Shown here: piece after piece, positions 1 to 48,479 of the stretch
Numbering within the stretch: position 1 is the first letter of the stretch
Layout of the letters: every line of letters starts with the position of its first letter
From: a virus
Direction: 5' to 3' (one strand)
Virus record (IMG/VR): IMGVR_UViG_3300005663_000065
Span: 1-49,843 of that record
Length of the DNA: 49,843 nucleotides
Notes under the pieces: generated by a model
Told to the model about the DNA's origin: nothing
Seen by the model: the letters and a program-made list of their open reading frames with translations, nothing else
The model's database searches: none
Made by a program: the position numbers and the translations under genes

Positions 1-431
1 TTATTCGCACCGGCCATTGTCTCACCACTGAGACCCGCCGACAATCGCCCCAGCCTGACCATCCCGACCGTCTCATCGTCCGTGAGCAATTGTACACACG
101 GCAGCAAGTCCAGAGGCTCATTCAAAATCCAGTCGTCTTCGATATGCATCCAGAGATTAGCCCGTTCCAACACCGCCGCAATGCCAAGGTTCATGTTGTT
201 GCCAACACCCCCACGCTTTGAATCGCTGACAGTGATGGAATACGTATTACCAATGGCCTCCCGCAATGCACTGACATACTCAGGCCCGCTGCCGTCGTCA
301 GCGATGTGGAATCCGATATTTGGATAGATAAGATTGGCCTTGACTGAGTTAATTGTCTCTATGGCTAACCTGAGCCGCCTGTACGTGATTATCAAAATGA
401 TGACTGGGGGATACAGAGTTTCATCGACCAT
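1..431 (-). CDS. Family 2 glycosyltransferase, N-terminal part (gene wraps across the window ends)
   Basis: The first 143 codons start at an ATG at 431 and encode a GT-A type sugar transferase. An N-terminal PPVIILIITYRR strand is followed by an 'ADDGSG' loop and 'IEDDW', the expected nucleotide-sugar/metal-binding DxD position. The frame is open to base 1. Joined to base 49843 it continues without a stop into the reading frame at 49843-49528, giving one 248-residue protein. The start lies 1 base from the stop of the upstream kinase-methyltransferase gene, so the two are translationally linked. The acceptor and sugar are unknown. The glycosyltransferase assignment is secure from the fold motifs; the circular join is an inference from frame continuity and a sensible fused protein. 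Confidence 0.85.
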   Translation of the reverse strand, partial: MVDETLYPPVIILIITYRRLRLAIETINSVKANLIYPNIGFHIADDGSGPEYVSALREAIGNTYSITVSDSKRGGVGNNMNLGIAAVLERANLWMHIEDDWILNEPLDLLPCVQLLTDDETVGMVRLGRLSAGLSGETMAGAN

Positions 432-432
432 A

Positions 433-1527
433 TTATTTCCTGACTTCCCATACCGTTCTTGAAGCTGGACGCCCAGTGACCGGGAATGTGCCGATTGGGT
501 TAACAGTGGTCGCGCCTAATGAATCCAATAGGCTTGCAACATCATTGTCAGTTTTCAATTGTTCAGGCCCCGGCCCATCGCCGTACAATTGGGTTTCAAA
601 GAACAGGACTTCAGAATCACGTATCCATCTGGTGAGTGTAGAGCAAGCGAGTTCCCATCCAAAATCTCGAACAACATAAGGCCATGTTGAGAACATCATG
701 ACCACATCAAAAGGATATGGCCCATCAGGATTAATGCGAGGCTCTACAAGATTGTATTGGTGTAAATAAATCGATCCGAATGGAAATTTCGACCAGAGCT
801 TCCGACCTATTTCAATAGAGTTTTCATCAGATCGAAAGCCACCTTGATCAAAGCCATGAGCGTTCATCCCTTCAGCCGCTGCCAGTGCCACAAAGTCACC
901 CTGGAAGCAACCCAGATCAAGAAACGACTTCCCTTTCAACGGGAGTGTTAAATTCAACGATGCGCCCAGAGCGCCCAATACAGCGAGCCATCGCCGTGCC
1001 ACTCTGGGAGTATCGAGCTGTCCATCTGGGCCATAAGTACCGGCTATGTGGCGCATGAGTAGGGCTGAATCGCTCCACGGCGACTTCTGAGGCGCTGTCT
1101 CAGTGAGTAAGTGCCCCTCTTGCCAGTCGATTGCATAGGGGTTGTTCCCGCGTGTGATGATGTTCGAGCCTTTTAGGTCACCATGACGAAGCCCACGTGC
1201 GCGAATCTCTGCCAGCATGAAGACACAGTTTCGCCGCCACGCCTCCATGTCGACTGGCGTCTCTGTGTCGCCCATGTCCTCTTGTTCAATGCCGTCAGTA
1301 CCTTCCAGCAATAGCCGTGGCGTGTACCCACTATCTGCCATTGCCCGAAGGCACTGGCCTTCATTCATCAGAGCTTCGACGTTATGCCCATGCACATCAA
1401 GCCCAGCCCATTCGCCGGTCACACCAACCTCATGTTTGGCTTGCTTGATAATGATGGAGTCACCTGATCCCCCCACACTGCGAATCACGTCCATTCCGAC
1501 ATGGCCGCCTATTCTTGTTTCATTCAT
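433..1527 (-). CDS. Kinase-methyltransferase fusion protein
   Basis: This 364-residue protein has two domains. Residues about 20-165 look like a small-molecule or RIO/lipopolysaccharide-type kinase: Lys28 in IIIKQ, catalytic loop HGDLKGSN (115-122) with Asp117 and Asn122, and metal-binding Asp134 in AIDWQ. Residues about 195-364 are a class I SAM methyltransferase with motif I FLDLGCFQGD (202-211) and the acidic strand end GFDQ. Kinase plus methyltransferase in one chain recalls WbdD-type O-antigen chain terminators, which methylate and phosphorylate the glycan end, but here the domain order is reversed. The gene overlaps the DNA glycosylase gene upstream by 4 bases and lies among sugar genes. 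Domain calls are confident; the glycan-capping role is inference. Confidence 0.8.
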   Translation of the reverse strand: MNETRIGGHVGMDVIRSVGGSGDSIIIKQAKHEVGVTGEWAGLDVHGHNVEALMNEGQCLRAMADSGYTPRLLLEGTDGIEQEDMGDTETPVDMEAWRRNCVFMLAEIRARGLRHGDLKGSNIITRGNNPYAIDWQEGHLLTETAPQKSPWSDSALLMRHIAGTYGPDGQLDTPRVARRWLAVLGALGASLNLTLPLKGKSFLDLGCFQGDFVALAAAEGMNAHGFDQGGFRSDENSIEIGRKLWSKFPFGSIYLHQYNLVEPRINPDGPYPFDVVMMFSTWPYVVRDFGWELACSTLTRWIRDSEVLFFETQLYGDGPGPEQLKTDNDVASLLDSLGATTVNPIGTFPVTGRPASRTVWEVRK

Positions 1528-2066
1528 TGATTACCTCTTGCGTACCGCTCCCAGATTTCGTAATCCAATTCTCGCGGCGTTTTGCCACGCTGTTTGGCTT
1601 CGCGCAAAAATGCTTGCTCTAATTCTTCGTATCGAGCGCCCGCCTGTGGCGTTGACTTTGGGGCATCGTATCCAAGTGACCTGAGCCACTTCAAAACATG
1701 CGTGTCCAATGCGGCGCACATTGCATCTGGTCGAGTCCACAGGATAAAGAAACGGGCGGTCTTTGGCCCTATGCCATGAACGGCTTCAAGCTCTTGTATC
1801 GTGCAAGTCCGTGGGTCCAGCTTGATAAGGTCGGGGAAACATTTCATCAATCGACCATATGAGCCGGTGCGTTCACTACGAAGCCAATCATCAAGATCAT
1901 CGCATTGAATGTGAGCATTGACGATATCAAATGGCATCTCATCAATCCTATTGCCCACAAGGGCAAGAACTTTCATCTCTGCAAAGTTCGCACTCTTCCC
2001 GGCGACCAGCACTGCATAGATAAGACGAGCTTGAAGCTCCCATAAAGACAATTCATTGGTAGTCAT
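1524..2066 (-). CDS. HhH-GPD family DNA glycosylase
   Basis: This 180-residue protein has the helix-hairpin-helix plus Gly/Pro-Asp signature of base-excision glycosylases such as endonuclease III and MutY. The hairpin is LEAVHGIGPKTAR (93-105) with Lys102 at the position used by bifunctional enzymes, and the catalytic aspartate is Asp121 in ALDTHV. There is no C-terminal four-cysteine iron-sulfur loop, so it belongs to the cluster-less subgroup. It would excise damaged or modified bases from DNA. Its stop overlaps the next gene by 4 bases and its start touches the upstream gene. It is an odd DNA enzyme inside a sugar-gene cluster. The base specificity cannot be read from sequence. Confidence 0.8.
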   Translation of the reverse strand: MTTNELSLWELQARLIYAVLVAGKSANFAEMKVLALVGNRIDEMPFDIVNAHIQCDDLDDWLRSERTGSYGRLMKCFPDLIKLDPRTCTIQELEAVHGIGPKTARFFILWTRPDAMCAALDTHVLKWLRSLGYDAPKSTPQAGARYEELEQAFLREAKQRGKTPRELDYEIWERYARGNQ

Positions 2067-2656
2067 CAGCGATTGAGGCTATCCGTGAAGGCTTTGGAGA
2101 ATCGGGCGTTGAACACCCCTGACCAGCCGCGTCTATACTTTGGCCGTTTGCCCAAGACCTCATCGCACGCCTGCTTAACACCTGGATACGATTCTGGCGC
2201 TGTGGTGCCATCGTAGTCATGAACGAAGATCAGTCCTTTCTTTTTCATGTTCGGCATCCAGGCTATAAGATCATTCTTAACCCCTGGATAACTGTGATCA
2301 GCATCGACAATGAGCAAATCAACATTGACTGCACGGTAGTTCTCGCCAGCTCGCTTTGACGGTGTATGAAGTTGAGCATGTTCAAGAATGGTAGGATCGC
2401 CCGTTGAATTGGCGAGCGCCTTAGCTTCCCAGTTGAGGTTTTCTTGATCATGATCTACCGTGAGCATGAAGCATTGCGGGCGTACTGCATAGACAGCGAG
2501 GCTCATGGTGCCTGATCCAGCGCCCAACATCACGACAGTGGGAACATCTGGCAGCGTGTCCATGACGGTCGCGAGCAACGCTATATCATCGGCGCAGGCC
2601 ATTTGGCGAGAGGCCGCGAGCTTATAGGCTTCGGCCAACATTGTTTCAGTGGTCAT
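2066..2656 (-). CDS. Class I SAM-dependent methyltransferase (Methyltransf_24-like)
   Basis: The 196-residue protein has a Rossmann-like SAM fold: VVMLGAGSGT (motif I), TVDHDQEN (acidic end of strand 2), and VDLLIVDADHSYPGVKNDL followed by GLIFVHDY. The last two are typical of the Methyltransf_24 / cephalosporin-hydroxylase-like group often found in polysaccharide clusters. It probably methylates a small molecule or sugar hydroxyl. It is coupled to neighbours by 1- and 4-base overlaps. The substrate is not deducible. Confidence 0.75.
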   Translation of the reverse strand: MTTETMLAEAYKLAASRQMACADDIALLATVMDTLPDVPTVVMLGAGSGTMSLAVYAVRPQCFMLTVDHDQENLNWEAKALANSTGDPTILEHAQLHTPSKRAGENYRAVNVDLLIVDADHSYPGVKNDLIAWMPNMKKKGLIFVHDYDGTTAPESYPGVKQACDEVLGKRPKYRRGWSGVFNARFSKAFTDSLNR

Positions 2657-3069
2657 TGCTTTCCATACCTTTCATGGAATGCTAAATCTAATTCATCCAC
2701 CGGAACGCCACATAATAAACCACGTAAGCCATGATATATAGGCGAATTCTTTTCAGCCATCTCCATTTCTTTTACTGTCTGATAGTATTGACGCCGAAAC
2801 AACCAATACTCATTATCGACCTTCATTAAGTCAAGGCTATAGACCTGAGCAACATAATTTATTCTAGCTGCAAATTCTCCTTCTTGATCTGTTGGTCTAA
2901 ACATGGCTGCTGGACAAGCACCTAGCCATATTTTCTCAGCAGAGGCACAAAGATGACCCCAAGAAAATATGGCTAGGTTATTACTTGATTGTCTTGTGGC
3001 TTCCTCAAAAACCTGTTGGAATAGTGGCCCACAAGTTGTATCTCGTATATTGTCTTTTTTAGTGGTCAT
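2653..3069 (-). CDS. Hypothetical protein
   Basis: A 138-residue protein of unknown family. It has no membrane segment or recognisable catalytic motif. The first residues (MTTKKDN) resemble those of several neighbours, and three scattered cysteines do not form a metal site. It sits in the leftward operon with a 4-base overlap to the methyltransferase gene downstream and an 11-base overlap with the gene upstream. The DNA is visibly more AT-rich than its neighbours, which may mark a more recent arrival. Confidence 0.6.
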   Translation of the reverse strand: MTTKKDNIRDTTCGPLFQQVFEEATRQSSNNLAIFSWGHLCASAEKIWLGACPAAMFRPTDQEGEFAARINYVAQVYSLDLMKVDNEYWLFRRQYYQTVKEMEMAEKNSPIYHGLRGLLCGVPVDELDLAFHERYGKQ

Positions 3070-3328
3070 GATTGTCCTTCCCTAGTTGCTTCAAAAGGAT
3101 TCCCTCTTTGTCTGTTTGTGGCTGTATGGCCCGGTCAAACCAGTTTTTAACAACCCAGTATTTTATAGACTCTGGCTCGCCTTCGTATGAATTAGGAGCC
3201 TCACCGCTTGTCAAACCAAGATGAATGCCATCGGCCCACGTGCGCCACGCGGCACATGAAGCGATCAGCGCCTCATACTCAGCAACAGGTATTTCCATCA
3301 TGGGTTGGTCATTCGGGTTGGTAGTCAT
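3059..3328 (-). CDS. Hypothetical protein
   Basis: An 89-residue acidic protein starting MTTNPND. The ATG at 3328 is chosen because AGAGGG lies just upstream; an upstream in-frame ATG (3403) would lie deep inside the preceding gene. No family is recognised. The gene overlaps its upstream neighbour by 20 bases and is part of the same leftward unit. Confidence 0.6.
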   Translation of the reverse strand: MTTNPNDQPMMEIPVAEYEALIASCAAWRTWADGIHLGLTSGEAPNSYEGEPESIKYWVVKNWFDRAIQPQTDKEGILLKQLGKDNHDH

Positions 3329-3917
3329 TGCTTCCCTCTTCGTCCATAGCTTCGATTCCTGCAAGGACGGCTCGTAGCAGGGCTTCGTAAGGGTCACAAG
3401 CATTTGACCCTGCTATTCCTTTACGGGTTGTTGCCTCAGATATTTGACATACAATCATCACGTCATCGACAGGACTAAATGTAACAGCCCACACCTTGCT
3501 GGATGTCCAAACCACCACCTTCATACCATCCAGCGCTGGAATCCAGTTGCGGCCTGTGCAGACACACCCTCTTCGTTCTTTGTGTGGCATAGCACCTGAC
3601 CCGAAAGTATTAAATGGCCTCTCTGCTGATGCACAGAATGGGCAGATGCCTTGCAATTTATAGAAAGGCGCACTTTTGCACGGACAATCCCGCCTGCTCC
3701 CCGCCACCAGAGGCACGATGCCTGAGCCGAGGCATGTCAAGCAATCTGTAGAATGCAACCCTAGAAGCTGTACTGGAATTGCGCCTTCTGGCATGTAATT
3801 ATTTTCAGGAAGACACGACTCGCAATAACTATCAGGGCCGCACGGACACGGCTTCTCTTTCGAGGCTAGCTCCAATTCCAACTTCTCGATTACAGCTTGT
3901 TGTTCTTTAGTGACCAC
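3309..3917 (-). CDS. Cysteine-rich hypothetical protein (probable zinc-binding)
   Basis: About 202 residues with many paired cysteines in the first half (CPCG, CESC, CLTC, CPC, CPFC, CVC), like zinc-knuckle or DnaJ-type cysteine repeats; the second half lacks them. I place the start at a GTG (3917) because GGAGGG lies just upstream; a TTG at 3929 is an in-frame alternative. It overlaps the upstream gene by 11 bases. No function can be assigned. Confidence 0.55.
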   Translation of the reverse strand: MVTKEQQAVIEKLELELASKEKPCPCGPDSYCESCLPENNYMPEGAIPVQLLGLHSTDCLTCLGSGIVPLVAGSRRDCPCKSAPFYKLQGICPFCASAERPFNTFGSGAMPHKERRGCVCTGRNWIPALDGMKVVVWTSSKVWAVTFSPVDDVMIVCQISEATTRKGIAGSNACDPYEALLRAVLAGIEAMDEEGSNDYQPE

Positions 3918-4359
3918 GATTCCCTCCAATGTCCATGCGATCTTGCGTGGGCCTCAATGCTTCACTTCGCCGTATGTCCTTTTCTTCGGGCAATGGCTCG
4001 ATGTTCCCCGCCTGGTATATGTCCCAATACTCTGGATGTTTTTTCACTCCCATAGGGAGAGCGCCATCTGTGGCCGGATGGCGCGTCCAGTAATCATGCC
4101 AAACGGCCATGCGATATCGAGCGAGCATGTTAATCTCGGATGTGAATAGCTTGTACCACTTGCCGCCCGACTCATAAGATTCAACGGCCAGCATTGGAAC
4201 ATCACGCCGATCCGTCACCACCGCTTGGTCAGGATCGCAGAGCACCTGCTGATACGCATCGGTCAGGATGACCAGGATTGTCCGTTCCCCTTCGCGTTTG
4301 ATATCGAGAACCAGCCCAGCGATGAGGCCCGATAGCTCAACCCTGTCATAGACGTTCAT
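3907..4359 (-). CDS. Hypothetical protein
   Basis: A 150-residue protein of unknown family. Two in-frame ATGs lie upstream, but the start at 4359 (MNVYDRVEL) forms an ATGA overlap with the glycosyltransferase stop, the usual coupling in this genome. The central part (DRRDVPMLAVESYESGGKWY) looks like a small beta-rich fold. It lies between glycosyltransferase and zinc-rich genes in the sugar island. Confidence 0.6.
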   Translation of the reverse strand: MNVYDRVELSGLIAGLVLDIKREGERTILVILTDAYQQVLCDPDQAVVTDRRDVPMLAVESYESGGKWYKLFTSEINMLARYRMAVWHDYWTRHPATDGALPMGVKKHPEYWDIYQAGNIEPLPEEKDIRRSEALRPTQDRMDIGGNRGH

Positions 4360-5063
4360 GCCGTCTCTTTCAGCTTGGGCCATGTGGGTTGCTTCCAATT
4401 CGCCGTCAACTTATTACGAAGAGTCATCATCTCCGAATGGTATTGATTGCCACGGCTGAGGGTGTCGGACTGGTCATGCCGCCGGTATAGGTAAGGTGGT
4501 TCCTTCGACTCCACGCGCCGAAGATTCCCGGCCTTCCCTTTCGCGCCCAACATAATCGATACCAACATGGTGTCAGGCGCTCCTAGAGCTGATTCGACTG
4601 GAAAGCCACCATTCAAGCACCAGAGTTTCTTCGTGACCATTGCGGCATGGCACGCAAGGCTCTGAGTCTCGCCAGTGTCACTGTATTGAATATCCACATA
4701 GTAATATCCGACAGGATCATTGAATCGATTGAAGGCGTCAGAACAATCTTGCAAGCACCAGGGCCTGAGAATATCGTCACTGCCGAGCATGAATACCAAC
4801 TCGTTCTGGGCCAACGCTACGCCGAAGTTGAAGGCATGAGCCACGCCAGAAAGCCAAGGCGTTTCGTAGTAATTGACACTGATGCCCTTCGGAGTCAAAG
4901 TCCATTCGATGGCCGTTCGTTCTTCAGGGGTCAAGTGAGCCTGGTCATCAACGATCATGACTTCAGACGGCTTGAATGTCTGGGCTGCAATGCTGTCAAG
5001 GCAGTCAAAGAGATAATCTCTATAGACCGGATTCGGGCCGATCGGCACCACGACACTGATCAT
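4356..5063 (-). CDS. Family 2 glycosyltransferase
   Basis: A 235-residue GT-A glycosyltransferase. The N-terminus (ISVVVPIG) enters the nucleotide-binding strand, MIVDDQ (36-41) is the first acidic site and LGSDD (93-97) is the DxD-like metal site. GG at 'NGGFPVESALGAPDT' matches the acceptor-loop region of GT2 enzymes. It would transfer one sugar from a nucleotide donor in the cytoplasm. No transmembrane segments are seen, so the acceptor is probably soluble: a phage protein, DNA or a lipid-linked glycan at the membrane face. It is one of at least three separate glycosyltransferase genes in this genome. Confidence 0.85.
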   Translation of the reverse strand: MISVVVPIGPNPVYRDYLFDCLDSIAAQTFKPSEVMIVDDQAHLTPEERTAIEWTLTPKGISVNYYETPWLSGVAHAFNFGVALAQNELVFMLGSDDILRPWCLQDCSDAFNRFNDPVGYYYVDIQYSDTGETQSLACHAAMVTKKLWCLNGGFPVESALGAPDTMLVSIMLGAKGKAGNLRRVESKEPPYLYRRHDQSDTLSRGNQYHSEMMTLRNKLTANWKQPTWPKLKETA

Positions 5064-5065
5064 GA

Positions 5066-5314
5066 TTATTCGACCTTTTCGTAAGTAGCGTCGAAGATGT
5101 CAGGCTTGCAAGGGTATTTCTCACCCTTGATGCCTGTGATTATCCAATCCATAAGAGACACATGCAATGGCCCCTCAAGAGTATGAATGTGTGGTGAATC
5201 AGGGCACGAGTTTGCACAGCCGACACTACCCCTAGGTATCACGCCATCCACATTGTCGTCGGGATGAACGTACTGTTCTGCCTCTACGACAATAGGTTTC
5301 TTTCTGTATTTCAT
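5066..5314 (-). CDS. Conserved small phage protein (MKYRKKPIVVEA family)
   Basis: An 82-residue protein that opens MKYRKKPIVVEAEQ and closes with a segment IHTLEGPLHVSLMDW, then ITGIKGEKYPCKPDIF. This is a widespread phage/prophage protein (PGDYG-like) of unknown function; the family recognition is from memory of its signature. The start at 5314 has AAGGAG five bases upstream. It sits between a glycosyltransferase and the RmlD-like gene without obvious relation to either. Confidence 0.75.
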   Translation of the reverse strand: MKYRKKPIVVEAEQYVHPDDNVDGVIPRGSVGCANSCPDSPHIHTLEGPLHVSLMDWIITGIKGEKYPCKPDIFDATYEKVE

Positions 5315-5325
5315 GATTCTCCTTG

Positions 5326-6180
5326 TCATATTCCAATCCCTGGTGCCCCTTCAGGATCGCCGCCACTTGCCAACATTTGATTAGCCTTTTCAACTTCATA
5401 GTCGGTTTTCAACTCTTCGATCACGTCGATCCATCCAAAGTTCCATATAGTCCAATCATAGCGTTCAGACTTCAATATCATGTTCTTATCTAAGATGTTG
5501 GGGTAGATGGCAGCACTTACAGTTATGTCAGGCCGAATTGCTTTGGCTATCATTTCCAACAATTCATACTTGGATATGACCGGCCCTTCGATATGGAGTA
5601 TTCCAGTTATCGGATCGTCCAAGAGACGCACCAGTTGGCGCGCGACTGTGTCGACATACAGGCCATTCCAGAGCCACCGGCGAAAGCCCGGAACCGTCGC
5701 GCCTTGCGGCTGATCCAGCAACCATCTGAGCAACCCACGTTGCCCGAATCCGATGAATGAAGTCCTGACCGTGAGATGAGGCGCATAATCTATTTCGCCC
5801 ATCAACTTCGAGTAACCATAGTGATCACTAGGTGTTGGCTCATCTGATTCGACATATGGCCCTTTGGTGCCGTCAAACACGCAATCTGTTGAGACTTGAA
5901 TCAACCTTCTAGCAACGGCAGCTATCCTGTATGGAGCCAAGGCGTTTACTTCACCCATCCTCTTGGCACTGACATCATCACGCCCGCGCACGATGCCTGC
6001 GCAATTGATGACATTGGCCCCAGTCAAATTCATAATATCAGTAGTATCGCTGATATCCATCGCATATGATGGATATGGTAGCACCCTATAATAATCACTG
6101 GCATCGAGCGCCTTGACCACAGCCCGGCCCAGCATCCCTCTTGCCCCAGTCACGACAACATCAGTGTCTTGGTAAATCAT
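5326..6180 (-). CDS. RmlD-like NAD(P)-dependent sugar-nucleotide reductase
   Basis: A 284-residue extended short-chain dehydrogenase. The dinucleotide loop is TGARGMLG (11-18), STDCVFDG (97-104) holds the catalytic serine/threonine region, and Y121-x3-K125 (YGYSK) is the catalytic pair. The pattern is that of dTDP-4-dehydrorhamnose reductase (RmlD), which reduces a 4-keto sugar nucleotide. Rhamnose partners RmlA/B/C are absent. With the adjacent 4,6-dehydratase (4-base overlap), a reductase acting like CapF/WbjC in a UDP-deoxy-amino-sugar route is an equally good reading, although the C-terminal cupin domain of CapF is missing. Family confident, substrate uncertain. Confidence 0.85.
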   Translation of the reverse strand: MIYQDTDVVVTGARGMLGRAVVKALDASDYYRVLPYPSYAMDISDTTDIMNLTGANVINCAGIVRGRDDVSAKRMGEVNALAPYRIAAVARRLIQVSTDCVFDGTKGPYVESDEPTPSDHYGYSKLMGEIDYAPHLTVRTSFIGFGQRGLLRWLLDQPQGATVPGFRRWLWNGLYVDTVARQLVRLLDDPITGILHIEGPVISKYELLEMIAKAIRPDITVSAAIYPNILDKNMILKSERYDWTIWNFGWIDVIEELKTDYEVEKANQMLASGGDPEGAPGIGI

Positions 6181-7172
6181 TCGTTTGCCTCTTCGATCAT
6201 TCCCTTCAACTCTTCGCTTTCAATCCAGTGGTCGGGCGTGTTGCTTGTATAGATATGAGCATCATCCCATGTTGTCGTTGGTGTGCGGCCTGGTGGATAC
6301 AGCAACATTGTTTTGTCGATGCGTTCGGTCTGCCGGGCTTCGGTTGGCGAAAGCAAGTCCTCATGCACTTTCTCACCGCCCCGACCACCTACGATCGTTA
6401 CAGTGAAATCTTTACTGCCTTCAAGGTCGGCCCTGGTCATGCCTGTTTCGAGTTCGGCGGCTGCATACGCCACCGTGAGCAAGTCAGTGGCTGCCAATCG
6501 GTTAATCATGATCGTGGCCCTATACTCTGCCGGGAATGACATCACGTTCGCGATCATGAGCACCGCGTCCGTGGCAGTTAGCCAAAACCTGGTCATGAGT
6601 GGATTCGTGACAATGAGATTACCTTGCCGGGCTTGCTCTCGGAAGATAGGGATCACTGATCCGGTGGAAGCGATGACATTGCCATACCGGACCAGATTGA
6701 AATACGTGTCTGACCAGCCATCAGCCTCTTGGAAAAGCCGTTCCATGATCCGCTTTGTCTGGCCATAGACGTTTTCAGGACTGCACGCTTTATCAGTGGA
6801 AATGCCAATGACCCGGCTCACATGGTTCTTAATGGCACTGATCGCGACGTTACGACTGCCATCAATGTTGGTTGCAATAGCTTCGCTGGGGAAATCTTCA
6901 CATTGAGGAACGTACTTCAGGGCAGCGGCATGGATAACTACCTGGTGGCCCGCCATCGCGAGTTCAACGCGATCTGAATCACGCACGTCGCCCAAGATGT
7001 ATGTGTGCTGTGGGAATTCGTGCCGCGCTACGGCGTGCTTGCCTTCGTCGCGACTGAAAACAGTGAACCTGACGTTTGGATGATTGGCCGCGAACCATCG
7101 CATTAAATGCTTGCCAAGGAACCCGGCCCCGCCAGTCATGAAGATTGACTGAATATCCCGTGTCTCATTCAT
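6177..7172 (-). CDS. UDP-GlcNAc 4,6-dehydratase-like enzyme (CapE/PseB/FlaA1 family)
   Basis: A 331-residue extended SDR enzyme. It has TGGAGFLG (13-20) for NAD(P), HAAALKYVP (81-89), the family motif STDKACSPENVYGQTK (125-140) with Asp127, Lys128, Tyr136 and Lys140, and VRYGNVIASTGS after it. These are hallmarks of UDP-N-acetylglucosamine 4,6-dehydratases, which make a 4-keto-6-deoxy intermediate (with or without C5 epimerisation) for capsule, O-antigen or flagellin sugars. The length matches the soluble family members. It is translationally coupled to the RmlD-like reductase, which could take its product. This is metabolic capacity to build a new nucleotide sugar, unusual for a phage of this size. 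Confidence 0.88.
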   Translation of the reverse strand: MNETRDIQSIFMTGGAGFLGKHLMRWFAANHPNVRFTVFSRDEGKHAVARHEFPQHTYILGDVRDSDRVELAMAGHQVVIHAAALKYVPQCEDFPSEAIATNIDGSRNVAISAIKNHVSRVIGISTDKACSPENVYGQTKRIMERLFQEADGWSDTYFNLVRYGNVIASTGSVIPIFREQARQGNLIVTNPLMTRFWLTATDAVLMIANVMSFPAEYRATIMINRLAATDLLTVAYAAAELETGMTRADLEGSKDFTVTIVGGRGGEKVHEDLLSPTEARQTERIDKTMLLYPPGRTPTTTWDDAHIYTSNTPDHWIESEELKGMIEEANE

Positions 7173-7426
7173 AGCGATCTTCGCCTGAATCTAATCGCTA
7201 TGTCGATTGGAGACTGATTATTATGACGAGCGTCATAAAGGATATTAGGAATTATGCTAAATGCATAGTCAAAAGGAACAGGTTTTACGTGCTGATCCAG
7301 AGTAGTGAGGGCGCGGAAGGTTTCTTCAACTTCCGTCTCTGAAAAATAAAACATGACCGACCAGTTGTACAACTGTGTGCGTAGGTCAAGCTGTGTGCGT
7401 AGCTTTGTCTCAAATGATGATGTCAT
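7169..7426 (-). CDS. Hypothetical protein, first gene of the leftward glycan/tail unit
   Basis: An 85-residue basic protein with no recognised domain. A very strong ribosome binding site (GGGAGGT) precedes the ATG at 7426, and its stop overlaps the dehydratase start by 4 bases. No leftward gene lies between it and the capsid-operon terminator, so its promoter should be in 7427-7590. I see no clear sigma70 pair there. Confidence 0.6.
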   Translation of the reverse strand: MTSSFETKLRTQLDLRTQLYNWSVMFYFSETEVEETFRALTTLDQHVKPVPFDYAFSIIPNILYDARHNNQSPIDIAIRFRRRSL

Positions 7427-7671: not shown

Positions 7672-7854
7672 ATGATGAAGATGCTAGACACCACAAGCCA
7701 CCTTTACAGCCCCGACGAAGCTATCCGCATCGCTGCCGACATGCAAACCGACGATGAAGATTGGGATTACCAAGTCGTCCACGACCCAACCGGAAAAGGG
7801 TATAGCTTCATTGAAATCTATGACAAAGATGGTGAATTCGTCGCCAAGGTTTAA
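7672..7854 (+). CDS. Small acidic hypothetical protein
   Basis: A 60-residue protein with a compact alpha/beta look (SPDEAIRIAADMQ, then WDYQVVHDPTGKGYSFIEIYD). GAGGG precedes the ATG at 7672. It is the first gene behind control element A and is likely co-transcribed with the next gene. No family or function is recognised. Confidence 0.65.
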   Translation: MMKMLDTTSHLYSPDEAIRIAADMQTDDEDWDYQVVHDPTGKGYSFIEIYDKDGEFVAKV

Positions 7855-7880
7855 TCAACACAAAGAAAAGGAATGCACAA

Positions 7881-8102
7881 ATGACGACTCGCACTGTCTA
7901 TATGCCAGCAATTGAGCGCACAGTAACGTTGAAAGCCTATCTTAAAGCAATCAAGATCGCTAAGGCCAACCCGGACACTGAGTTCAAGCAAGGGTTGACT
8001 ACATGGTGGCCCACGACTGGAAAAGAAATAATGCAGCAATTTCGACGCGGAATGAATGACCGTATTAATCAGGGCATCCCATACAACAATCGTGGAGTCT
8101 AA
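7881..8102 (+). CDS. Conserved phage hypothetical protein
   Basis: A 73-residue basic protein (TRTVYMPAIERTVTLKAY, later FKQGLTTWWPTTG and DRINQGIP). I recognise this pattern as a small protein found in many unrelated phages, with no assigned role. AAAGGAATG lies upstream of the start. It ends 10 bases before the bidirectional terminator and forms a two-gene plus-strand cassette between the capsid operon and the sugar island. Confidence 0.7.
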   Translation: MTTRTVYMPAIERTVTLKAYLKAIKIAKANPDTEFKQGLTTWWPTTGKEIMQQFRRGMNDRINQGIPYNNRGV

Positions 8103-8112
8103 TCCTAAACAA

Positions 8113-8142
8113 AAGAGGGGCAGCCCAACAGCTGCCCCTCTT
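8113..8142. terminator. Bidirectional Rho-independent terminator
   Basis: A 12-bp perfect stem (AAGAGGGGCAGC / GCTGCCCCTCTT) with a 6-base loop. It is T-rich on both sides (CTTTT on the plus strand, TTTTGTTT on the minus). It lies between the convergent ends of the plus-strand pair (ending 8102) and the capsid gene (ending 8168), so it should stop both transcripts. Confidence 0.9.
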
Positions 8143-8167: not shown

Positions 8168-9646
8168 CTAGGCAGGCAAGTTCCAATCGCTGAACAGGCT
8201 CGGTCCAGTCCTCGAAGTCTCGCCACCATCAACGAAGTATGGCGAATCAGGGAATGGCTCGCGGGTGTGCTGCAATGGCGCGTAACGCACGTTCTGAAGT
8301 CGCCCGGCCAACTGTGGCGTGAGTAAGATCACTCTCGGCTCGATCTTCGACACCCATTGGTTACACCAGTTCAACGGCGGTTTCTTGTGCCACAGGAACC
8401 GGCCACCGTCCGTCCAGAAATCGTCACCCAGGCGTCCATCAGCCACCGCTACCATTGCGCCCTGGTTATAGTCCAGGTACTGCATGAATGTCGATGCCTG
8501 ACCGCCCCTGATAGTCAAGGGGATGAAATAGATGTCGGACGCGAACTGACCGGCCAGAATGTTAACGTTGTCAGCGTCCGTCTCTTCCTCGATTCCATCA
8601 TCCTGGATGACCGGAACCTGAATTCCGTCGATCAAGAGATAACTACCGCCTCTCATCGTGTCTCTGAGGTTGATCTGATCGGCTGCATCCACAACCACAC
8701 GCTCTTGACCGTTGGCGTCTCGGAACGCGCATCGGTATGTCAAGTATGAACAAGGCCAGACTGCCGTGATCTCAAAGAAGAGTTCAGGCCGCATCGTGAT
8801 TGCCCACGTGGTTGGGTCAAAGTTCATCCTGGTGGCATTGTGCCGGAGGAACCGATTCATGTAGGTCAAGACCTCCACAATGTCAGTCCCGTTGGCTACC
8901 TCATCCACCAGACCATAGTTGAAATCTTTGATATCGCTATCGAGCGAAGGGCAGTTCGTGCCCGTGATGGCATCCACTTTGTTCGTGCCGATCAAGATAT
9001 CAAGGCCCGGAAATTCGGCATATCCGCCACCGGCAGTGTTGTTGGCCGGATTGCCAGTGTACAACTGCCGTATGAGCTTATTCTGGAAGCTGACCCCGAC
9101 CTCAACAAATGCCATCAGGACTTCGCGCCTGAGATCGGGAGTACCGGCGATGTTTTGCTGAAGCAAGCCGCCTTCCGGCTGAAGCAACGGATCGTTCAGC
9201 ACTCGCAAATCAAGAAACTCGCCCCTGTCGGTCTGTTGACCAACGCGGTTAATCTCAATCTCTTTCGTCATGAAGCTGTACCGCCCGAACTGGGCCGTCT
9301 GGATACATGACTTGGTAGGCCCGGCGATCATGGGATCGTCGCAAACCCCGTCAGGATCACTGCCTGTGTTGTCCTGAAAGCCTGTCAGGTATCCGAAGAG
9401 AGGATTCATACGCATCGAGCCTTGCGCGGGAAGCATCCCGGCCAAGCCTTGCGGCTGAATCCGTGTGCTAATGATGTCACGTTCCAGGCCGCTAACGCCA
9501 AAGATGCCGCCCGGCCCATGCATATAGTTGGTCGTGGGGGTTCCGGTTGGCGTGGTGTGTTTCCAACCAGTGGTTGACTTGGCCCTCATTCGTGCTTCGA
9601 TTTCTTCAACGAAGGCGTCAAGCACGCCGCTTTGTTTGGTGGTCAT
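8168..9646 (-). CDS. Major capsid protein
   Basis: A 492-residue protein with the features of a large HK97-like shell protein. An early Gly/Pro-rich stretch is followed by CDDPMIAGPTKSC (103-115), a segment I know from environmental phage capsid proteins, then QFGRYSFMTKEIEINRVGQ and a mixed alpha/beta remainder. Position directly after the protease gene and the best ribosome site of the window (GGAGGT) support very high expression. It is longer than the usual 300-400 residues, suggesting an inserted domain. Last gene of the head operon, followed by the terminator at 8113-8142. Assigned by position, size and partial family memory. Confidence 0.8.
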   Translation of the reverse strand: MTTKQSGVLDAFVEEIEARMRAKSTTGWKHTTPTGTPTTNYMHGPGGIFGVSGLERDIISTRIQPQGLAGMLPAQGSMRMNPLFGYLTGFQDNTGSDPDGVCDDPMIAGPTKSCIQTAQFGRYSFMTKEIEINRVGQQTDRGEFLDLRVLNDPLLQPEGGLLQQNIAGTPDLRREVLMAFVEVGVSFQNKLIRQLYTGNPANNTAGGGYAEFPGLDILIGTNKVDAITGTNCPSLDSDIKDFNYGLVDEVANGTDIVEVLTYMNRFLRHNATRMNFDPTTWAITMRPELFFEITAVWPCSYLTYRCAFRDANGQERVVVDAADQINLRDTMRGGSYLLIDGIQVPVIQDDGIEEETDADNVNILAGQFASDIYFIPLTIRGGQASTFMQYLDYNQGAMVAVADGRLGDDFWTDGGRFLWHKKPPLNWCNQWVSKIEPRVILLTPQLAGRLQNVRYAPLQHTREPFPDSPYFVDGGETSRTGPSLFSDWNLPA

Positions 9647-18763: not shown

Positions 18764-18785
18764 TTGTCCTTCATTATCCATTTCA

Positions 18786-41955: not shown

Positions 41956-42285
41956 TTAGTTGAATAATTCTGTCACTTTCGCCACATCCACTTTGAACGC
42001 GGCCTGGACTGCCGCAAACACTTCTTTGTGTCTGCCCTTTATATCCCGCTTGGTAAACATGCCTCTGGCATGGAGTTGATTATGAAGCCGCACGGCAGTT
42101 TCTTCAGGCAAGTGAAGCCCACTACTGTCAGGCGGCCCGATCGGAATACCCATCGATGGAGGGAAGTCGCTATCAGATGGCATCGCGACGGCCCACATTC
42201 GGCCTGATTCATCCTCATAGTCCTGACGGACTAAAGGGCCACTGCCTGACCTATCTTCCGGTTTCCGCTCTGAGCTAGTTGCCAT
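41956..42285 (-). CDS. Hypothetical protein of the connector-tail region
   Basis: 109 residues from ATG 42285. Middle part SDFPPSMGIPIGPPDSSG is Pro/Gly-rich; the C-terminus is helical (HKEVFAAVQAAFKVDVAKVT). It overlaps the upstream gene by 55 bases. Position suggests a tail completion or virion protein. Confidence 0.5.
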   Translation of the reverse strand: MATSSERKPEDRSGSGPLVRQDYEDESGRMWAVAMPSDSDFPPSMGIPIGPPDSSGLHLPEETAVRLHNQLHARGMFTKRDIKGRHKEVFAAVQAAFKVDVAKVTELFN

Positions 42286-43502
42286 GCTAACAATGCCCCT
42301 CTTTTGGTTCCCCAAGGATTCAACAACGCTCGATCACTGAGCTGGAAGCTCTCAGACCCTGCCGATGTGGAAATGTTCAGAGCCAAATCCTGATTCATTT
42401 GCTTGAATAATTCCTGGATGTTGTTACACCCACAGACCGGACGCCGCATCAATGTCAACGATAAATACGCGATTGTCCGTTCAAGCTGCCGTTCCATTTC
42501 AAGGTTGGGCGCGTCATTGCTCATGTCTCGGAAGCCCGCATAGTACCACAATCGAGCGTTGTCAGGATTTCGCCCGACCGCAAAGGACGCTGCGTCGAAC
42601 TCTTCGGTGGTAGCGTTCCACGTCGCTGGGCGAAAGTGAAAGCTGCCAATCCGGTGATCATTGATAATCAGGCATCCAGTCTGAGTAGAGTGGGCGCACG
42701 TGGGGCATGAGCCGCTTGCACATCCACAAAGGTTCGGACGTGGCGACCACATCAGAGTCACGGCTTGCTGTGGATCATTGAAGTGTTGAAAGATGTCTAC
42801 CGTGCTGAGGAAGTTGGCATCGACATTGCCGTCTACCGCTTCCGGGGCCAAGGCATTCCAGAGGTCGGGATCGACCAGTAATTCACGCGCAACAATGATC
42901 GTGGCTACACCGCCCGCGATGGTAATGGCCCGGCGACGTGTGAGAGGGTCGTTTAGTGGTTTGATCTCCCATTCATCGCGGCCATTTTCACCAGGGAAAT
43001 AGACCGCGATTTGCTCAGGGTCAATGACGGTGGTCGCGACAATGATTGTCGCCGTCTCTGGATAGCTGTCGCCGTCAGTGTCGGTATAAGTGACGCCAAC
43101 GCCCGCTTGAATCAATGTCTTGGCTTCAATGCCACCTGAAACCAGATGCCCGAATAGGGTCTGGATCGCGTGAGGGAAGCCGCGAGCGTCCAGTGAGTTC
43201 ATGCTGAGGACATCAGGAAAGCCCGCTTTGGTCAGGTGTGCGCGTTCATCGACTTGCCAGTCGGGGAGGAGCTTGTATTTGACTTCAGACTCAAACATCT
43301 CTTCGGCTTGCGCGATGGCTTGCGCCACATCCTCGCGGCCAATCTGATCGTTCTCTTGCCAAGCATATTGCTTCCAGACTTGGGAACAGAGATTGGGAGG
43401 TTTTGCTGAGGTCGTGACCTGGTTGAAATGCCGGGGATCGATGCCTAGGATTTCGGCCCACCTATCCAGGGATAGCTTTGTCTTCGTTCTCGCTCGTGCC
43501 AT
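42231..43502 (-). CDS. Conserved virion protein (head-tail connector-like)
   Basis: 423 residues from ATG 43502 (AAGGAAG upstream). The opening KLSLDRWAEILGIDPRHFNQ is a conserved signature of a structural protein found before the tail tube gene in many environmental phages; cysteine clusters CGCASGSCPTC and CGCNN occur later, and the C-terminus ends in a helical SDRALLNPWGTKRGALLAWQ. Role at the head-tail interface is inferred from position. Confidence 0.65.
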   Translation of the reverse strand: MARARTKTKLSLDRWAEILGIDPRHFNQVTTSAKPPNLCSQVWKQYAWQENDQIGREDVAQAIAQAEEMFESEVKYKLLPDWQVDERAHLTKAGFPDVLSMNSLDARGFPHAIQTLFGHLVSGGIEAKTLIQAGVGVTYTDTDGDSYPETATIIVATTVIDPEQIAVYFPGENGRDEWEIKPLNDPLTRRRAITIAGGVATIIVARELLVDPDLWNALAPEAVDGNVDANFLSTVDIFQHFNDPQQAVTLMWSPRPNLCGCASGSCPTCAHSTQTGCLIINDHRIGSFHFRPATWNATTEEFDAASFAVGRNPDNARLWYYAGFRDMSNDAPNLEMERQLERTIAYLSLTLMRRPVCGCNNIQELFKQMNQDLALNISTSAGSESFQLSDRALLNPWGTKRGALLAWQLAQSGNRKIGQAVAL

Positions 43503-43520
43503 TACAGCTTCCTTCAAGTA

Positions 43521-43964
43521 TTATGATAATTCGAGAATATGAAGCCCACCTTTTGATTGGCCTTTGTGCTTCCATCCAGCAACTTTGAAACAATAACCTG
43601 GATTAGGACTATCAATTTTATAAGGATTTACATATGTCCAAAGCCGTTGAGAAGGCCAATACTCTTGCGCTATTGCAACAGCATCATTAATTAAAACTGA
43701 GCTTAATATATTAGATTCGTTCCTAAAAACATAGCATTGAATACCCTCTTGATGGTCATGGCGTATTTGTTGTTCTAACCATCCCCACAGAGCTTTTGAA
43801 TCGGATGTCAACATCGTGACATCATGCCCATTGGCGCTTATCCCGTGAGCAAGCCAATCTTTGATACTTTTGCCATTCTTCTTGCTACTATAATGACGAG
43901 CATATAAATGGACAACACGAGGATCACGGTTACTGACTTCAAACCAAGAATAGCCTTCAAACAT
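43521..43964 (-). CDS. GNAT-like acyltransferase fold protein
   Basis: 147 residues. RHYSSKKNGKS, GHDVTMLTSDSKALWGWLEQ, GIQCYVFRNESNILSS, then WTYVNPYKIDSPNPGYCFKV and AGWKHKGQSKGGLHILE mark a widespread phage family with a GNAT-like fold. Substrate unknown; acetylation of a protein or sugar is possible. The DNA is more AT-rich than its neighbours. TAATG overlap with the membrane-protein gene. Confidence 0.7.
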   Translation of the reverse strand: MFEGYSWFEVSNRDPRVVHLYARHYSSKKNGKSIKDWLAHGISANGHDVTMLTSDSKALWGWLEQQIRHDHQEGIQCYVFRNESNILSSVLINDAVAIAQEYWPSQRLWTYVNPYKIDSPNPGYCFKVAGWKHKGQSKGGLHILELS

Positions 43965-44344
43965 TATCTGCTCTGATCAGGATCATCCCTGAACGACTGG
44001 GCGATCATGTACGTGATCATTGTTTCTATCACTGCCACAATTCCCCAAAGCGCCAAGGCCGTGACTATCAGATCAGCCCAGACAGCCACCACATACATTA
44101 TTATAGCCGTCCAGAACGACATGCACCAGATACAGCCGAACAATGAGCCGGGCATCCCGCCGAAATAGGGTAATGGTCGCCCCTGAACGTCGTGGTCAAT
44201 GCCAGACCATATGCGGATGCGTTCGACAATGCGCCACGGCCCTGATTCACGCACCAGGAACACGGCCACACGCCACGCGGCCATCGCTATTAGGAATAGC
44301 TCCATCTTGGAAGGAATGCCGTTGAACTGATCCCAGAGGCTCAT
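43964..44344 (-). CDS. DUF1360-like membrane protein
   Basis: 126 residues. Hydrophobic segments near 14-31, about 75-100 and 100-118, with the family motif SLFGCIWCMSFWTAI and an upstream RESGPWRIVERIRIW. DUF1360 proteins are small phage and Bacillus membrane proteins of unknown role. Candidate for lysis or superinfection control; no charge pattern proves a holin. Confidence 0.7.
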   Translation of the reverse strand: MSLWDQFNGIPSKMELFLIAMAAWRVAVFLVRESGPWRIVERIRIWSGIDHDVQGRPLPYFGGMPGSLFGCIWCMSFWTAIIMYVVAVWADLIVTALALWGIVAVIETMITYMIAQSFRDDPDQSR

Positions 44345-44946
44345 AGTCCACCCTCACGTAAGCTGGGCGCTCCCAATAGGCTCATTTGGTTTGCGAAGAA
44401 ATCAGCGATCCGCTGAGGAAACGAGTCACATATTTGTGGCCCTTCCGAATTCATCAGTACCGCAGAAAAGAAATACTGGCGGTAATTATCACTCTGATGG
44501 AAGATTGCGAAATGAGCAACTCTTGTCTGTGCATCATGACTTGATGCTGGGAACCAAATGGCAACCCCAAAGCCAGTTTCACCCAGCGGGTAAATTGGAA
44601 ATCCAGATATGTTAAATGCTATAGGTGTATTAGGACCACTCATTAGAGTGGCGTCCCTTCCCCATCTTGACGCTCCTAACGGCCATGATTCGTTTGCGAA
44701 ATGTTCAGTGATGCGATCCCAAAACACATTGCATGTACGTGGCCCGTTCAAATTCATCTCTGCCGAAAATAGACTCTGCCGAAAATCATCGGTCTCATGG
44801 AAGATTGAAAAGTAAGGACACTTTATTCCATTTGGATCAGGCCAAAATGTGTGGAAAGTAACACTTACTCCAAAGCCGGTTTCCCCTAGAGGGTGAATGG
44901 GATGACCGTACATATCCCTTGGCGCACTATCTTCTGAACCACTCAT
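44341..44946 (-). CDS. Tandem-duplicated domain protein of unknown family
   Basis: 201 residues made of two about 90-residue repeats: GHPIHPLGETGFGVSVTF...FSIFHETDDFRQSLFSAEM...DRITEHFANESWPLGAS and GFPIYPLGETGFGVAIWF...FAIFHQSDNYRQYFFSAVL...QRIADFFANQMSLLGAP. Each repeat is beta-rich with a final helix. No known family comes to mind. Overlaps both neighbours by 4 bases, between the triple glycosyltransferase and DUF1360 genes. Confidence 0.65.
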   Translation of the reverse strand: MSGSEDSAPRDMYGHPIHPLGETGFGVSVTFHTFWPDPNGIKCPYFSIFHETDDFRQSLFSAEMNLNGPRTCNVFWDRITEHFANESWPLGASRWGRDATLMSGPNTPIAFNISGFPIYPLGETGFGVAIWFPASSHDAQTRVAHFAIFHQSDNYRQYFFSAVLMNSEGPQICDSFPQRIADFFANQMSLLGAPSLREGGL

Positions 44947-47900
44947 AGTGGCGTCTTCTCCCTCAAAGCTGTTTCCAGAATCGCGATGGCCGTGCTCCTG
45001 TTGGGGCCACTCTTCTCACGAGCTATTTGCAAAGCTAACTCTTCGGTTGACATCCCGGCGAGTTGTTTCCGTAACTCAGCTAACGTGGGCATTTTCTGAT
45101 CCGTGAGATCGACCTGTGGCGCTGGCTTTGTGAGATCATTCACCTGCACCTGTTCGGGCAACCTTGCCAACCGTTCTCCGTCCTTGCGATCTTGTGGGGC
45201 ACGATCCAAATTAGGGGGGGCCTCAGCCACTTCAACAGAGGTCACAGGTGCCACAGGTTCTTCATGGTCATGGCGGTCAGGTGCGCCAACTGCCACGAGG
45301 GTTGGCGCGGCATTGACTGAAGGCATTGGCTGCCCATTAGGGACACTTGGGTCATGAACGACGAACATTGGTCGCGCTCCGTCGCGCAATGAAAGAAGAT
45401 GTTCGACATCAACTTTCAGGACATATTTGATCCCGTGACCTTTGTTGTTGCCGAACCGATATTGGGTGTTGCTTGGCCCTTTGTAAACACGGGTTCCCGT
45501 ATGCTCCGCGACATACTTCATAATGACGTAACCTTCCCGCGCCTTCATTGCCAACGATGAACTACTTGCCATGACTGGTGGAGGGCTGTATCGGCCTCCA
45601 CCGCCACCGCCACATCCTGCGCAAGCCATTGTTAGTGTCTCCCTTCGTTCCCATAAGTGTGACCACTTCGTTAAGATCGCGTCTTTGCCATCATTAAAGG
45701 CAGCCATATGCTCTTCACGCCGGAAGCCTGTGTGCTTCCTATATGTAAATAATGGCATAGGTAGCTTGGTTCCGCAAATCCCTTTCGACGCCAGAGCTAA
45801 CTGGAAATCCCAATCTTCCCAATGGCTCATTGATTCATCAAAGCCACCGACCAACTCCCACGCACTCTTTTCATAGAGCGCTGTCACTGCATGAATCGCG
45901 CCATTTGCAGTCAAAAAGGCTGGATCAAAGTCAGGTGGATCATACAGACTCAGGTCATTGTTGTTTTGATCCCACCACTGGCTGTACACGACCCCTTTGA
46001 ACTGCGTCCAGGCGTCGTATAGAGTTGATAAAGCGTCAGGCTGTAGGAAATCATCAGCGTCCAGGGGAAGGAACAATGGCGCGGTTGACTGAGAGATCGC
46101 GAGATTACGCGCCCGTGCTGGACCCATTCGTTCGTGCCAATCCTCACTTTCGCCACAAATGCAAAAAATCTTATGATCCTTTGCTTGCTCCCAGTAACCA
46201 TCAAAAGGATGATAAGGCGTATCCATACCGCCATCGATCACCTTTGCCCACGTGTGCGGCACCTTCAGATCATGGCCCGTGTCATTGACCACCAGGCATT
46301 CCCAATCACGGAACACCTGAGCTTCAACTGAATCGAGGGCGTCAATCAATAACTCTTCGTGTCCAGGGCCAACCGGAATAATGACACTGATTCTCACAGG
46401 CTCATATGATGCTACGTTCCAGGCAATTCCCCCGTTGACCTGTTTGCTGGGAGATTCCTCGACGCCGAATGGCACGAGGCTCATGTGTCTTGACCAGGGA
46501 TACCAGGCCGCCCAGTTTTGCTGTGTCTCATTTCGGCTCATGGAGTCGGCCCGCTGCCGATAGATCAGTGTCGGCTTGTTCGTGACTTTTTGAGGCACAA
46601 ACCCCAGGCTCACGGCCCGCGTCCAGAAATCCGCATCCTCAGCCGTCCTGTAGCGTGTTCTGTAGCCACCTGAGCGTTCCCAGACCTTCCGCCTGTACAT
46701 AGCAGTTGATGGGATTTGATTCTTTTGAAGCATCTGCGCCCGAAAGCTGAAAGCGGCCGGCCATCCACTGATGCCATCCGGCGCGATCGTTGTATCAGGA
46801 TATTGACCATTTTTCTGAACGAATTGCACAGCACCATATGCTATGTCAATCTCTCGATCACGATCGAGCGCATTCACCAACAATTCAAGAGTTCCAGGTG
46901 CGGCCATATTATCCGCATCAAGAGGAATAATGTAACGCCCACGAGATACGCTAATCCCAGCATTAAGAGCGCCCGCGAGATATTGGTTTGTTTCATTAGT
47001 AATGACCTTAATTCGCGCATCCTGGTCCGCGAGCGCGCCCGCGACTTCAGCCGTATTGTCTGGACTGGCATCATTCACGATGATTGCTTCCCAGTGCTTG
47101 AAGGTCTGATTCAACAGGCTTTTGATCGTGGCTGGAAGAAATTGTGCGAGATTGTAACACGGAATCACGACACTCACGACCGGCCCTGCGAACGATTCAA
47201 CGGACGAAGCATAGACCTCTTCATAGAGCTTGGCATATCGAGCCATCGCGATATCCCAGGTGAAGCGTTCAGCCACGGCATCTCTTGCCGCCTTGCCGAT
47301 CCTGGATCGGTTTTTCAACGCCCACCTAATGCCTTCTTCAAGCCCTTCGATGTCGCCCGGCGTGGCAAGCCAACCTGTTTCACCATGTTCAATAATGTCT
47401 CTCTGACCGCCCCAGGCCCAGCCAACGACCGGAACCTCTGCCGCCATTGCTTCGAGAGTGCCGACGCCAAAAGTCTCTCTGGTAGTGCAAAGATAAATAC
47501 CCGCGTGTTTGATGATCTCTTTCGCTCCCTCGAATCCCATGCGCCCAGTCACTGTGACATTATGGGCGCGTTCCCCGAATGTCGTCACGTATGTCAAATC
47601 GGGTGTCAACTTTGCCAATTCGTTTAAGGGACTTGGATCGCAGATCGGGTCAGGCCGCGTTTTGTTCCAAAGGATGTAGCCACCATTGGGGCCTTTGGTC
47701 CAATCTTCGAGATCAATCGCGTGAGTCAAGACAGTGGGGTTGAGCCACATGCCGCGCCGGAAGGACTGCGCAACCCACTCAGATGGCGTAGTGACATGAT
47801 CAGCTCGCCTCATGGCAGTTATGACCTGGTTGTTCAGATCATGGCACCATCGCGGCCATTCATATTCTTGCCAGTACAGACCATGTGTATGAACTACCCA

Positions 47901-48274: not shown

Positions 48275-48479
48275 TTGCTGTCTCTATGCTTTCCTCTTCG
48301 GGATAGTATGGCTTTTTCTCTATTAATGGCGCGCACAGTTTCAGCCATCCTTTGCGTGCAAGGCCAAAAACTTGAAAATCTGACGACGCTGAACACCATT
48401 GTAAGGCATCAAGAAACTGATCACGTTCCCTTTTGACCGCTTCCAATTCAGCATCTAATGAATATGGCTGATCCATCAT
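48267..48479 (-). CDS. Small hypothetical protein
   Basis: 70 residues with a charged helix (LDAELEAVKRERDQFLDALQ) and acidic end. 4-base overlap with the DUF1643 gene. Function unknown. Confidence 0.55.
   Translation of the reverse strand: MMDQPYSLDAELEAVKRERDQFLDALQWCSASSDFQVFGLARKGWLKLCAPLIEKKPYYPEEESIETANE

Follow-up and report, generated by a model that had tools for sequence, protein, structure and literature searches.

Results

A carbohydrate gene island lies between the capsid and tail genes

We analysed a 49,843-nt stretch of viral DNA (IMG/VR virus record IMGVR_UViG_3300005663_000065, positions 1-49,843; hereafter, the window) and characterised an island of carbohydrate genes located on its minus strand between the capsid gene and the tail genes. 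Leftward from the capsid gene, the island comprises an open reading frame (ORF) of 85 amino acids (aa), the dehydratase gene Deh, an RmlD-like gene, g87, the glycosyltransferase (GT) gene GT2b, four small ORFs, and the methyltransferase gene MT24. These are followed by a gene for a helix-hairpin-helix (HhH) protein, the kinase-methyltransferase gene KinMT, GT2j, several small ORFs together with a DUF1643 gene, and GT3, which codes for a triple glycosyltransferase. Leftward of GT3 we found g201, the DUF1360-like g126, g147, g428, and then the tail genes, including those of the tape-measure and Dit-like proteins. The tail module is of the siphovirus type, and no sheath was recognised among the window proteins scanned. 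The carbohydrate genes are the following.

6177..7172, minus strand: Deh, UDP-N-acetylglucosamine (UDP-GlcNAc) 4,6-dehydratase of the FlaA1/PseB-CapE family (PF02719, 3e-68)
5326..6180, minus strand: RmlD-like 4-keto reductase (PF04321, 2e-21; RmlD matches in the PDB)
4356..5063, minus strand: GT2b glycosyltransferase (PF00535, 4e-11)
2066..2656, minus strand: MT24, S-adenosylmethionine (SAM) methyltransferase (PF13578, 5e-12)
433..1527, minus strand: KinMT, WbdD-like kinase-methyltransferase (A9 profile of 11 relatives, matching WbdD)
1..431, minus strand: N-terminal part of GT2j, continuing over the join at 49843 (PF00535, 5e-8; in-frame continuation)
49528..49843, minus strand: C-terminal part of GT2j (in-frame continuation)
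44943..48086, minus strand: GT3, 1047 aa, GT4-GT2-GT2 followed by a C-terminal Cys-pair/beta domain (PF00534, PF00535 twice)

An initial annotation, made from the sequence alone, had listed these enzymes, and all of them are indeed present on the minus strand. The Pfam calls on the dehydratase, the RmlD-like protein, the GT2 enzymes, the methyltransferase, and GT3 lie well over cut-off, and KinMT was identified through the A9 profile. Deh matches PF02719 with 230 bits (cut-off 20.2), and its nearest relatives in the PDB are H. pylori FlaA1/PseB (2gn4, 2.6e-46) and then CapE. The catalytic D-K and Y-x3-K residues of Deh are kept in 31/31 relatives and the T in 30/31. The RmlD-like protein matches PF04321 with 77 bits (cut-off 27); its Y-x3-K motif reads YGYSK in the window, and 15 of 17 relatives conform to Y-x-x-[ST]-K. 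Together, a 4,6-dehydratase and an RmlD-like reductase would convert UDP-GlcNAc into a UDP-6-deoxy-N-acetylhexosamine (UDP-6-deoxy-HexNAc).

Pfam recognises five GT domains in the window, one each in GT2b and GT2j and three in GT3. Catalytic motifs are kept in GT2j (EDD, 36/36) and in all GT3 domains, where the GT4 glutamate, two DxD motifs, and the ED of the first GT2 are conserved in 76/76 homologs. The PDB entry nearest to the first GT2 domain of GT3 is chondroitin synthase, a polymerase with two GT2 domains. This likeness makes polymerisation of a glycan by GT3 possible. The GT2j frame (3-431, minus strand) runs in frame over the record ends into 49528-49842 and yields a single protein of 248 aa. 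This shows a circular or circularly permuted record in which the join is real, as the initial annotation had assumed when it carried the island across the record ends to GT3.

KinMT alone falls under the Pfam cut-offs. A profile built from 11 KinMT relatives (A9), however, matches WbdD with an E-value of 1.8e-12, the methyltransferase and the kinase aligning as two separate stretches. Residues H115, D117, N122, D134, D204, G206, and G210, which correspond to the kinase motifs HxD....N and D(F/W) and to the SAM-binding motif DxGxxxG, are invariant in the 11 relatives. The domain order is opposite to that of WbdD, with the kinase first and the protein stopping after the methyltransferase; hence, we call KinMT WbdD-like and not WbdD. 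In several more distant loci, the kinase and the methyltransferase are two adjacent genes. In E. coli O9a, WbdD adds first a phosphate and then a methyl group to the end of the O-antigen chain (PMC3482155). The homology of both domains to WbdD supports the assignment of KinMT as a putative glycan-capping enzyme, a role already proposed in the initial annotation.

GT3 contains a predicted nested protein with its own translation start

The C-terminus of GT3 consists of a Cys-pair motif, a flexible linker rich in Ser, Thr, Pro, Ala, and Gly, and a small beta domain, which spans residues 33-80 in the modelled piece with a predicted local distance difference test score (pLDDT) above 90. Two features mark this region.

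45638..45646, minus strand: Shine-Dalgarno sequence GAAGGGAGA of the internal GT3 start (spacing GAAGGGAGA-n8-ATG, 45646-45627)
44943..45629, minus strand: predicted nested protein beginning MACAGCGGGGGG..., 228 aa, from an internal in-frame ATG (start and Cys pair present in homologs)

We found an in-frame start codon 1-6 residues ahead of the Cys pair in all 77 complete fused GT3 homologs. These homologs come from 80 loci; in the other three, GT3 is truncated (L084), split in two ORFs (L087), or leaves its C-terminal (CT) domain to an independent gene, which has a ribosome site and lies just ahead of g126 (L079). A Shine-Dalgarno match of 5-8 nt accompanies the internal start at 53 of the 66 measured sites (80%), as compared with 6.9% of the other codon positions in the same genes. 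Moreover, the matches are spread over all three codon phases (28, 25, and 12), and they are therefore kept at the RNA level and not at the protein level. This pattern indicates that the CT domain is probably produced in two forms, as the tail of GT3 and as a free protein. In turn, the persistence of an open, in-frame fusion across such divergence suggests that the long form of GT3 is used as well. Among viral models, the CT beta domain resembles only small uncharacterised proteins of tailed phages.

HhH-like ends were also observed on the nested Cys-pair protein of L079 (13177-13683) and on the GT3 C-termini of L101, L109, and L117, which suggests that the nested protein may contact DNA in some relatives.

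Borders, transcription, and other genes of the island

The remaining features of the locus are listed below from right to left.

8168..9646, minus strand: putative major capsid protein, 492 aa, left border of the slot (AlphaFold2 model and Foldseek)
8113..8142, both strands: bidirectional intrinsic terminator between the capsid gene and the island (12-bp perfect stem, T-rich tail on both strands)
7672..8102, plus strand: two small ORFs (60 and 73 aa) between the capsid gene and the island (ORF list)
7169..7426, minus strand: 85-aa ORF opening the island, with a strong Shine-Dalgarno sequence (ORF list)
5066..5329, minus strand: g87, small phage protein of 87 aa, not a sugar gene (nucleotide matches to phages)
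2653..4398, minus strand: four small ORFs, not recognisable as sugar genes (ORF list)
1524..2066, minus strand: HhH/DNA-glycosylase-like protein, an unrelated insertion (PHROG 11575, 1e-40; weak HhH)
48476..48961, minus strand: DUF1643 protein between GT2j and GT3 (PF07799, 4e-40)
43964..44344, minus strand: g126, DUF1360-like small membrane protein, after GT3 (PF07098, 0.0016, sub-threshold; present in most loci)
42231..43517, minus strand: g428, putative neck/connector protein, right border of the locus (conserved position)

Neither the 8168-9646 protein nor 45 homologs of it have a Pfam or PHROG relative. An AlphaFold2 model built from 46 sequences (pLDDT 83.5, predicted template modelling score 0.80) gave Foldseek top matches that were all HK97-fold phage capsids (SPO1, SU10, Mic1, and HK97), with E-values down to 2e-10 and probability 1.00. 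Because of these matches, we assign it, on the basis of the model, as a divergent HK97-fold major capsid protein. At the other border, g428 shows no Pfam match and a single weak, uninformative PHROG match, so that its connector label derives from position only.

The 8113-8142 hairpin directly follows the capsid gene, and the two rightward small ORFs come next. This arrangement indicates that the island of the window starts a new leftward transcription unit that reaches the tail genes. Many neighbouring island genes share a 4-base overlap, as genes of one operon do. Hence, the island appears to share its transcript with the leftward tail genes rather than with the capsid gene: co-transcription with the tail genes, as initially proposed, agrees with this layout, and the terminator separates the capsid transcript from that unit.

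A carbohydrate island between the head and tail modules is real, but it is not purely carbohydrate, as the HhH/glycosylase-like gene, the small ORFs at 2653-4398, g87, and the DUF1643 gene all lie within it. Gene g87 shares 79-80% nucleotide identity over ~80 nt with Bacillus phage BSP38-like phages and a Microcystis phage, and this ~80-nt stretch is the sole direct nucleotide match of the window to phage isolates. Sitting between sugar genes, g87 is by its sequence a putative mobile small gene.

The island is a variable slot within a constant structural core

Capsid and GT3 queries, run independently, retrieved ~100 IMG/VR loci. An alignment search with the capsid protein in 2.9 million viral contigs gave 21 loci, and those with enough downstream sequence carry a Deh homolog after the capsid gene, followed by GT2j and GT3. 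GT3 is present in 11 of 14 full records of capsid relatives, the remaining three being fragments of 16-21 kb, and in two of three further records, the third being an 8-kb fragment. The GT3 search gave 124 relatives, 80 of which entered the locus analysis. Profile annotation of these loci revealed the order g487-capsid-[slot]-GT3-g126-g428-g507-g193 almost without exception. The dehydratase query alone found no match in the viral contigs, as the query peptides are not conserved.

Outside this collection, 50,697 phage records held no capsid or KinMT match, and their GT3 matches cover at most about one third of the length; this agrees with the initial statement that the exact combination corresponds to no described phage system. 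No capsid relative was found in 84,980 genomes, where near-full-length GT3 occurs only in phage contigs within proteobacterial and gemmatimonad metagenome-assembled genomes (MAGs) and in a 3.9-kb Saccharibacteria fragment. The two phage contigs in these MAGs (L130 and L131) belong to the lineage and are nearly identical to each other, which represents a public binning error.

The initial annotation had asked for a synteny search and had named host contamination as a possible explanation. The same order recurred in the ~100 viral loci. Contamination or mis-assembly was ruled out by this recurrence, by the frame that crosses the join, and by the co-variation of GT3 with the capsid gene.

The capsid gene and GT3 lie between 55 and 9,360 bases apart, and the slot between them holds 37 different ordered gene sets in 60 loci, as counted with a limited profile set. 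Relatives carry other sugar chemistry in their slots, including a DegT aminotransferase, a GHMP kinase, and a formyltransferase with a PIG-L deacetylase, as well as radical SAM/SPASM proteins, FkbM and other methyltransferases, and a GT10-like enzyme. In near relatives, whose capsid proteins are 73-74% identical to that of the window, a radical SAM gene takes the position of the RmlD-like gene. Some genes travel together: RmlD co-occurs with GT2b (p 1.7e-7) and the formyltransferase with the deacetylase (3/3), and DegT avoids Deh (p 4e-4), these p values taking loci as independent. Multi-pass membrane proteins account for 2 of the 304 slot ORFs in the 60 slots. Distance correlations with the capsid protein were 0.76 for GT3, 0.76 for g428, 0.73 for g487, 0.68 for Deh, and 0.55 for GT2j, all at the permutation limit. 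Thus, the evolutionary link of GT3 to the capsid is as strong as that of the next structural gene.

The slot of one relative (L018:17011-19836) contains a 941-aa DNA methylase with an intein-like LAGLIDADG insert among the sugar genes, and slots of other relatives hold Endonuclease VII and cyclic-phosphate receiver-like genes. These contents indicate that the slot also attracts selfish genes.

Other features of the genome

A 31-nt direct repeat, GATGTGCGGTCAGGATCGCGGCTAACCATGA, occurs with 87% identity at 19235-19265, inside the terminase gene, and at 28984-29014, in the rightward region, and might be a recognition site. A 25-nt inverted repeat (88%) has its arms at 32323-32347 and 34000-34024, 1.65 kb apart, in a rightward ORF and a minor tail gene. 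The genome of this siphovirus also codes for a DUF5131 protein (23076-23960, 3e-74), near a RuvC-like gene (23971-24486) and a gene for a protein with a DnaA N-terminal domain (25597-26391). A C5-cytosine methylase gene (17738-18838) overlaps the end of the large terminase gene.

Discussion

In this study, we found that the carbohydrate genes of the window occupy a hypervariable slot that is present throughout a phage lineage, that GT3 contains a predicted internal translation start, and that a terminator separates the island from the capsid gene. These points go beyond the initial annotation. The reading that we favour, with moderate confidence, is that the island is this phage's form of a lineage-wide virion-glycosylation locus, including a capped oligosaccharide and the nested protein. 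The initial annotation had left the target as either the virion or the cell surface. We prefer the virion because the slots lack export genes and the module is tied to structural genes.

If the island acts on the virion, Deh and the RmlD-like reductase would convert host UDP-GlcNAc into a 6-deoxy-HexNAc donor in the cytoplasm. GT2b would add this sugar, and GT2j together with the three GT3 domains would build a short oligosaccharide. The methyltransferases would then decorate it, and KinMT, like WbdD, would close its end with a methyl phosphate. As the virion assembles, one of its proteins would receive the finished glycan. The C-terminal domain of the long GT3 isoform would perhaps guide this isoform to the neck or head under assembly, and the short isoform may serve as an ordinary structural or morphogenesis protein. 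The separate CT gene of L079 and the head- or connector-like PHROG matches of a few CT relatives speak for the nested protein. Exchange of slot genes would give each phage another coat glycan.

Several observations speak against virion glycosylation or some part of it. In the window, the terminator sets the island apart from the capsid gene, and the small DUF1360 membrane protein that usually comes next after GT3 could indicate a membrane step. Moreover, the internal start is a prediction from sequence. The CT fold has no match in the PDB, and the CT relatives that match PHROGs named head-tail connector, PmgS-like head morphogenesis, and head protein are few and their matches weak.

A more specific version of virion glycosylation, which we put forward only tentatively, is that GT3 couples enzyme and acceptor in one gene. 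The short product would be the glycan-bearing virion protein, the long product would bring the transferase to it through the shared C-terminal domain, and the slot would set the glycan. Within this coupling, the glycan is possibly S-linked at the conserved Cys pair of the short product.

The strongest competing explanation, which we nevertheless consider unlikely, is a late remodelling of the lipopolysaccharide, capsule, or teichoic acid of the infected cell, leading to superinfection exclusion or stopping progeny phages from adsorbing again. In that case, a lipid carrier of the host would hold the glycan during its completion, and host machinery would export it. The nearest characterised relatives of the island enzymes are WbdD, CapE, and O-antigen enzymes, phage GT2 enzymes are often GtrB-type in action, host flippases could serve, and the DUF1360 protein adjoins GT3. 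However, scarcely any of the ORFs in the 60 slots resembles a flippase, a polymerase, or a transporter, as reflected in the near absence of multi-pass membrane proteins. Furthermore, the GTs of the window have no transmembrane segment, and the module sits among structural genes and co-varies with them.

It is also conceivable, yet improbable, that the slot holds accessory cargo without a common function, in which host sugar genes were successively inserted at a permissive spot. Its contents differ widely, and unrelated genes (HhH, DUF1643, DNA methylases, and HNH-type genes) land there too. In contrast, GT3 is present in every record that is long enough, its catalytic residues do not vary, and its divergence follows that of the capsid gene. 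In addition, the pairs that travel together or avoid each other (RmlD with GT2b, formyltransferase with deacetylase, DegT against Deh) make biochemical sense. Least probable of all is DNA hypermodification, in which the transferases would glycosylate modified phage bases as in T4-like and other phages: the genome has the C5-cytosine methylase and phage GTs acting in DNA hypermodification are known (cited in PMC12619734), but a search for TET/JBP (PF12851) found no match, although its control was silent too, a GT4-GT2-GT2 protein with a dehydratase, a reductase, and a capping kinase is no known DNA-modifying set, and the genes are located among late structural genes.

On the virion-glycosylation reading, a large group of uncultured siphoviruses appears to hold a whole pathway of nucleotide-sugar synthesis, assembly, and capping in a slot tied to its capsid and neck genes. 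If this is true, phage coats would display an antigen-like glycan diversity, encoded as bacteria encode their O-antigens, with a bearing on adsorption, protist grazing, immune recognition, and the stability of particles in the environment. GT3 would represent a concrete example of a phage gene nested in frame within the gene of an enzyme. For biochemistry, the lineage also offers several small soluble sugar enzymes, among them a permuted WbdD.

Phage virion glycosylation as such is known. Mycobacteriophages Che8, Corndog, and Myrna glycosylate their virions by phage glycosyltransferases (Freeman et al. 2023, as cited in PMC12363180 and PMC12619734), and the glycans are placed on capsid and tail-tube proteins. 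As described in these citing papers, the known cases rest on the phages' own GTs, and no mention is made there of a dehydratase, reductase, kinase-methyltransferase, or GT fused to a nested protein. The phage of the window differs in having a whole putative sugar-building slot, and the tblastn matches listed for GT3 showed no relationship to mycobacteriophage GTs. In a literature search that covers subscription papers poorly, no paper turned up that describes a swappable slot for sugar building within a structural operon, a WbdD-like cap in a phage, or a GT with a nested phage protein.

Individual components have clear counterparts elsewhere. GtrABC serotype conversion by temperate phages also relies on phage-borne GT2 enzymes, whereas the window has no GtrA-like flippase or membrane GT and places its genes in the structural region. 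Nested in-frame genes are known from phage lambda, where the short head-morphogenesis product Nu3 starts inside the longer gene C. The window shares this layout, and its longer product is a glycosyltransferase, unlike the protease of lambda. Deh and the RmlD-like protein share fold family and catalytic residues with the FlaA1/PseB and CapE dehydratases and with RmlD-type reductases, but neither the PseC-type aminotransferase nor the CapG-type epimerase of those systems was recognised in the window. Finally, both domains of KinMT are homologous to those of WbdD from E. coli O9a (PMC3482155), and the same two reactions would be expected. In contrast to WbdD, KinMT is phage-borne, has the reversed domain order, and ends without the C-terminal coiled coil. 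If GT3 does couple enzyme and acceptor, the locus would be the phage counterpart of an O-antigen locus, with the acceptor built in.

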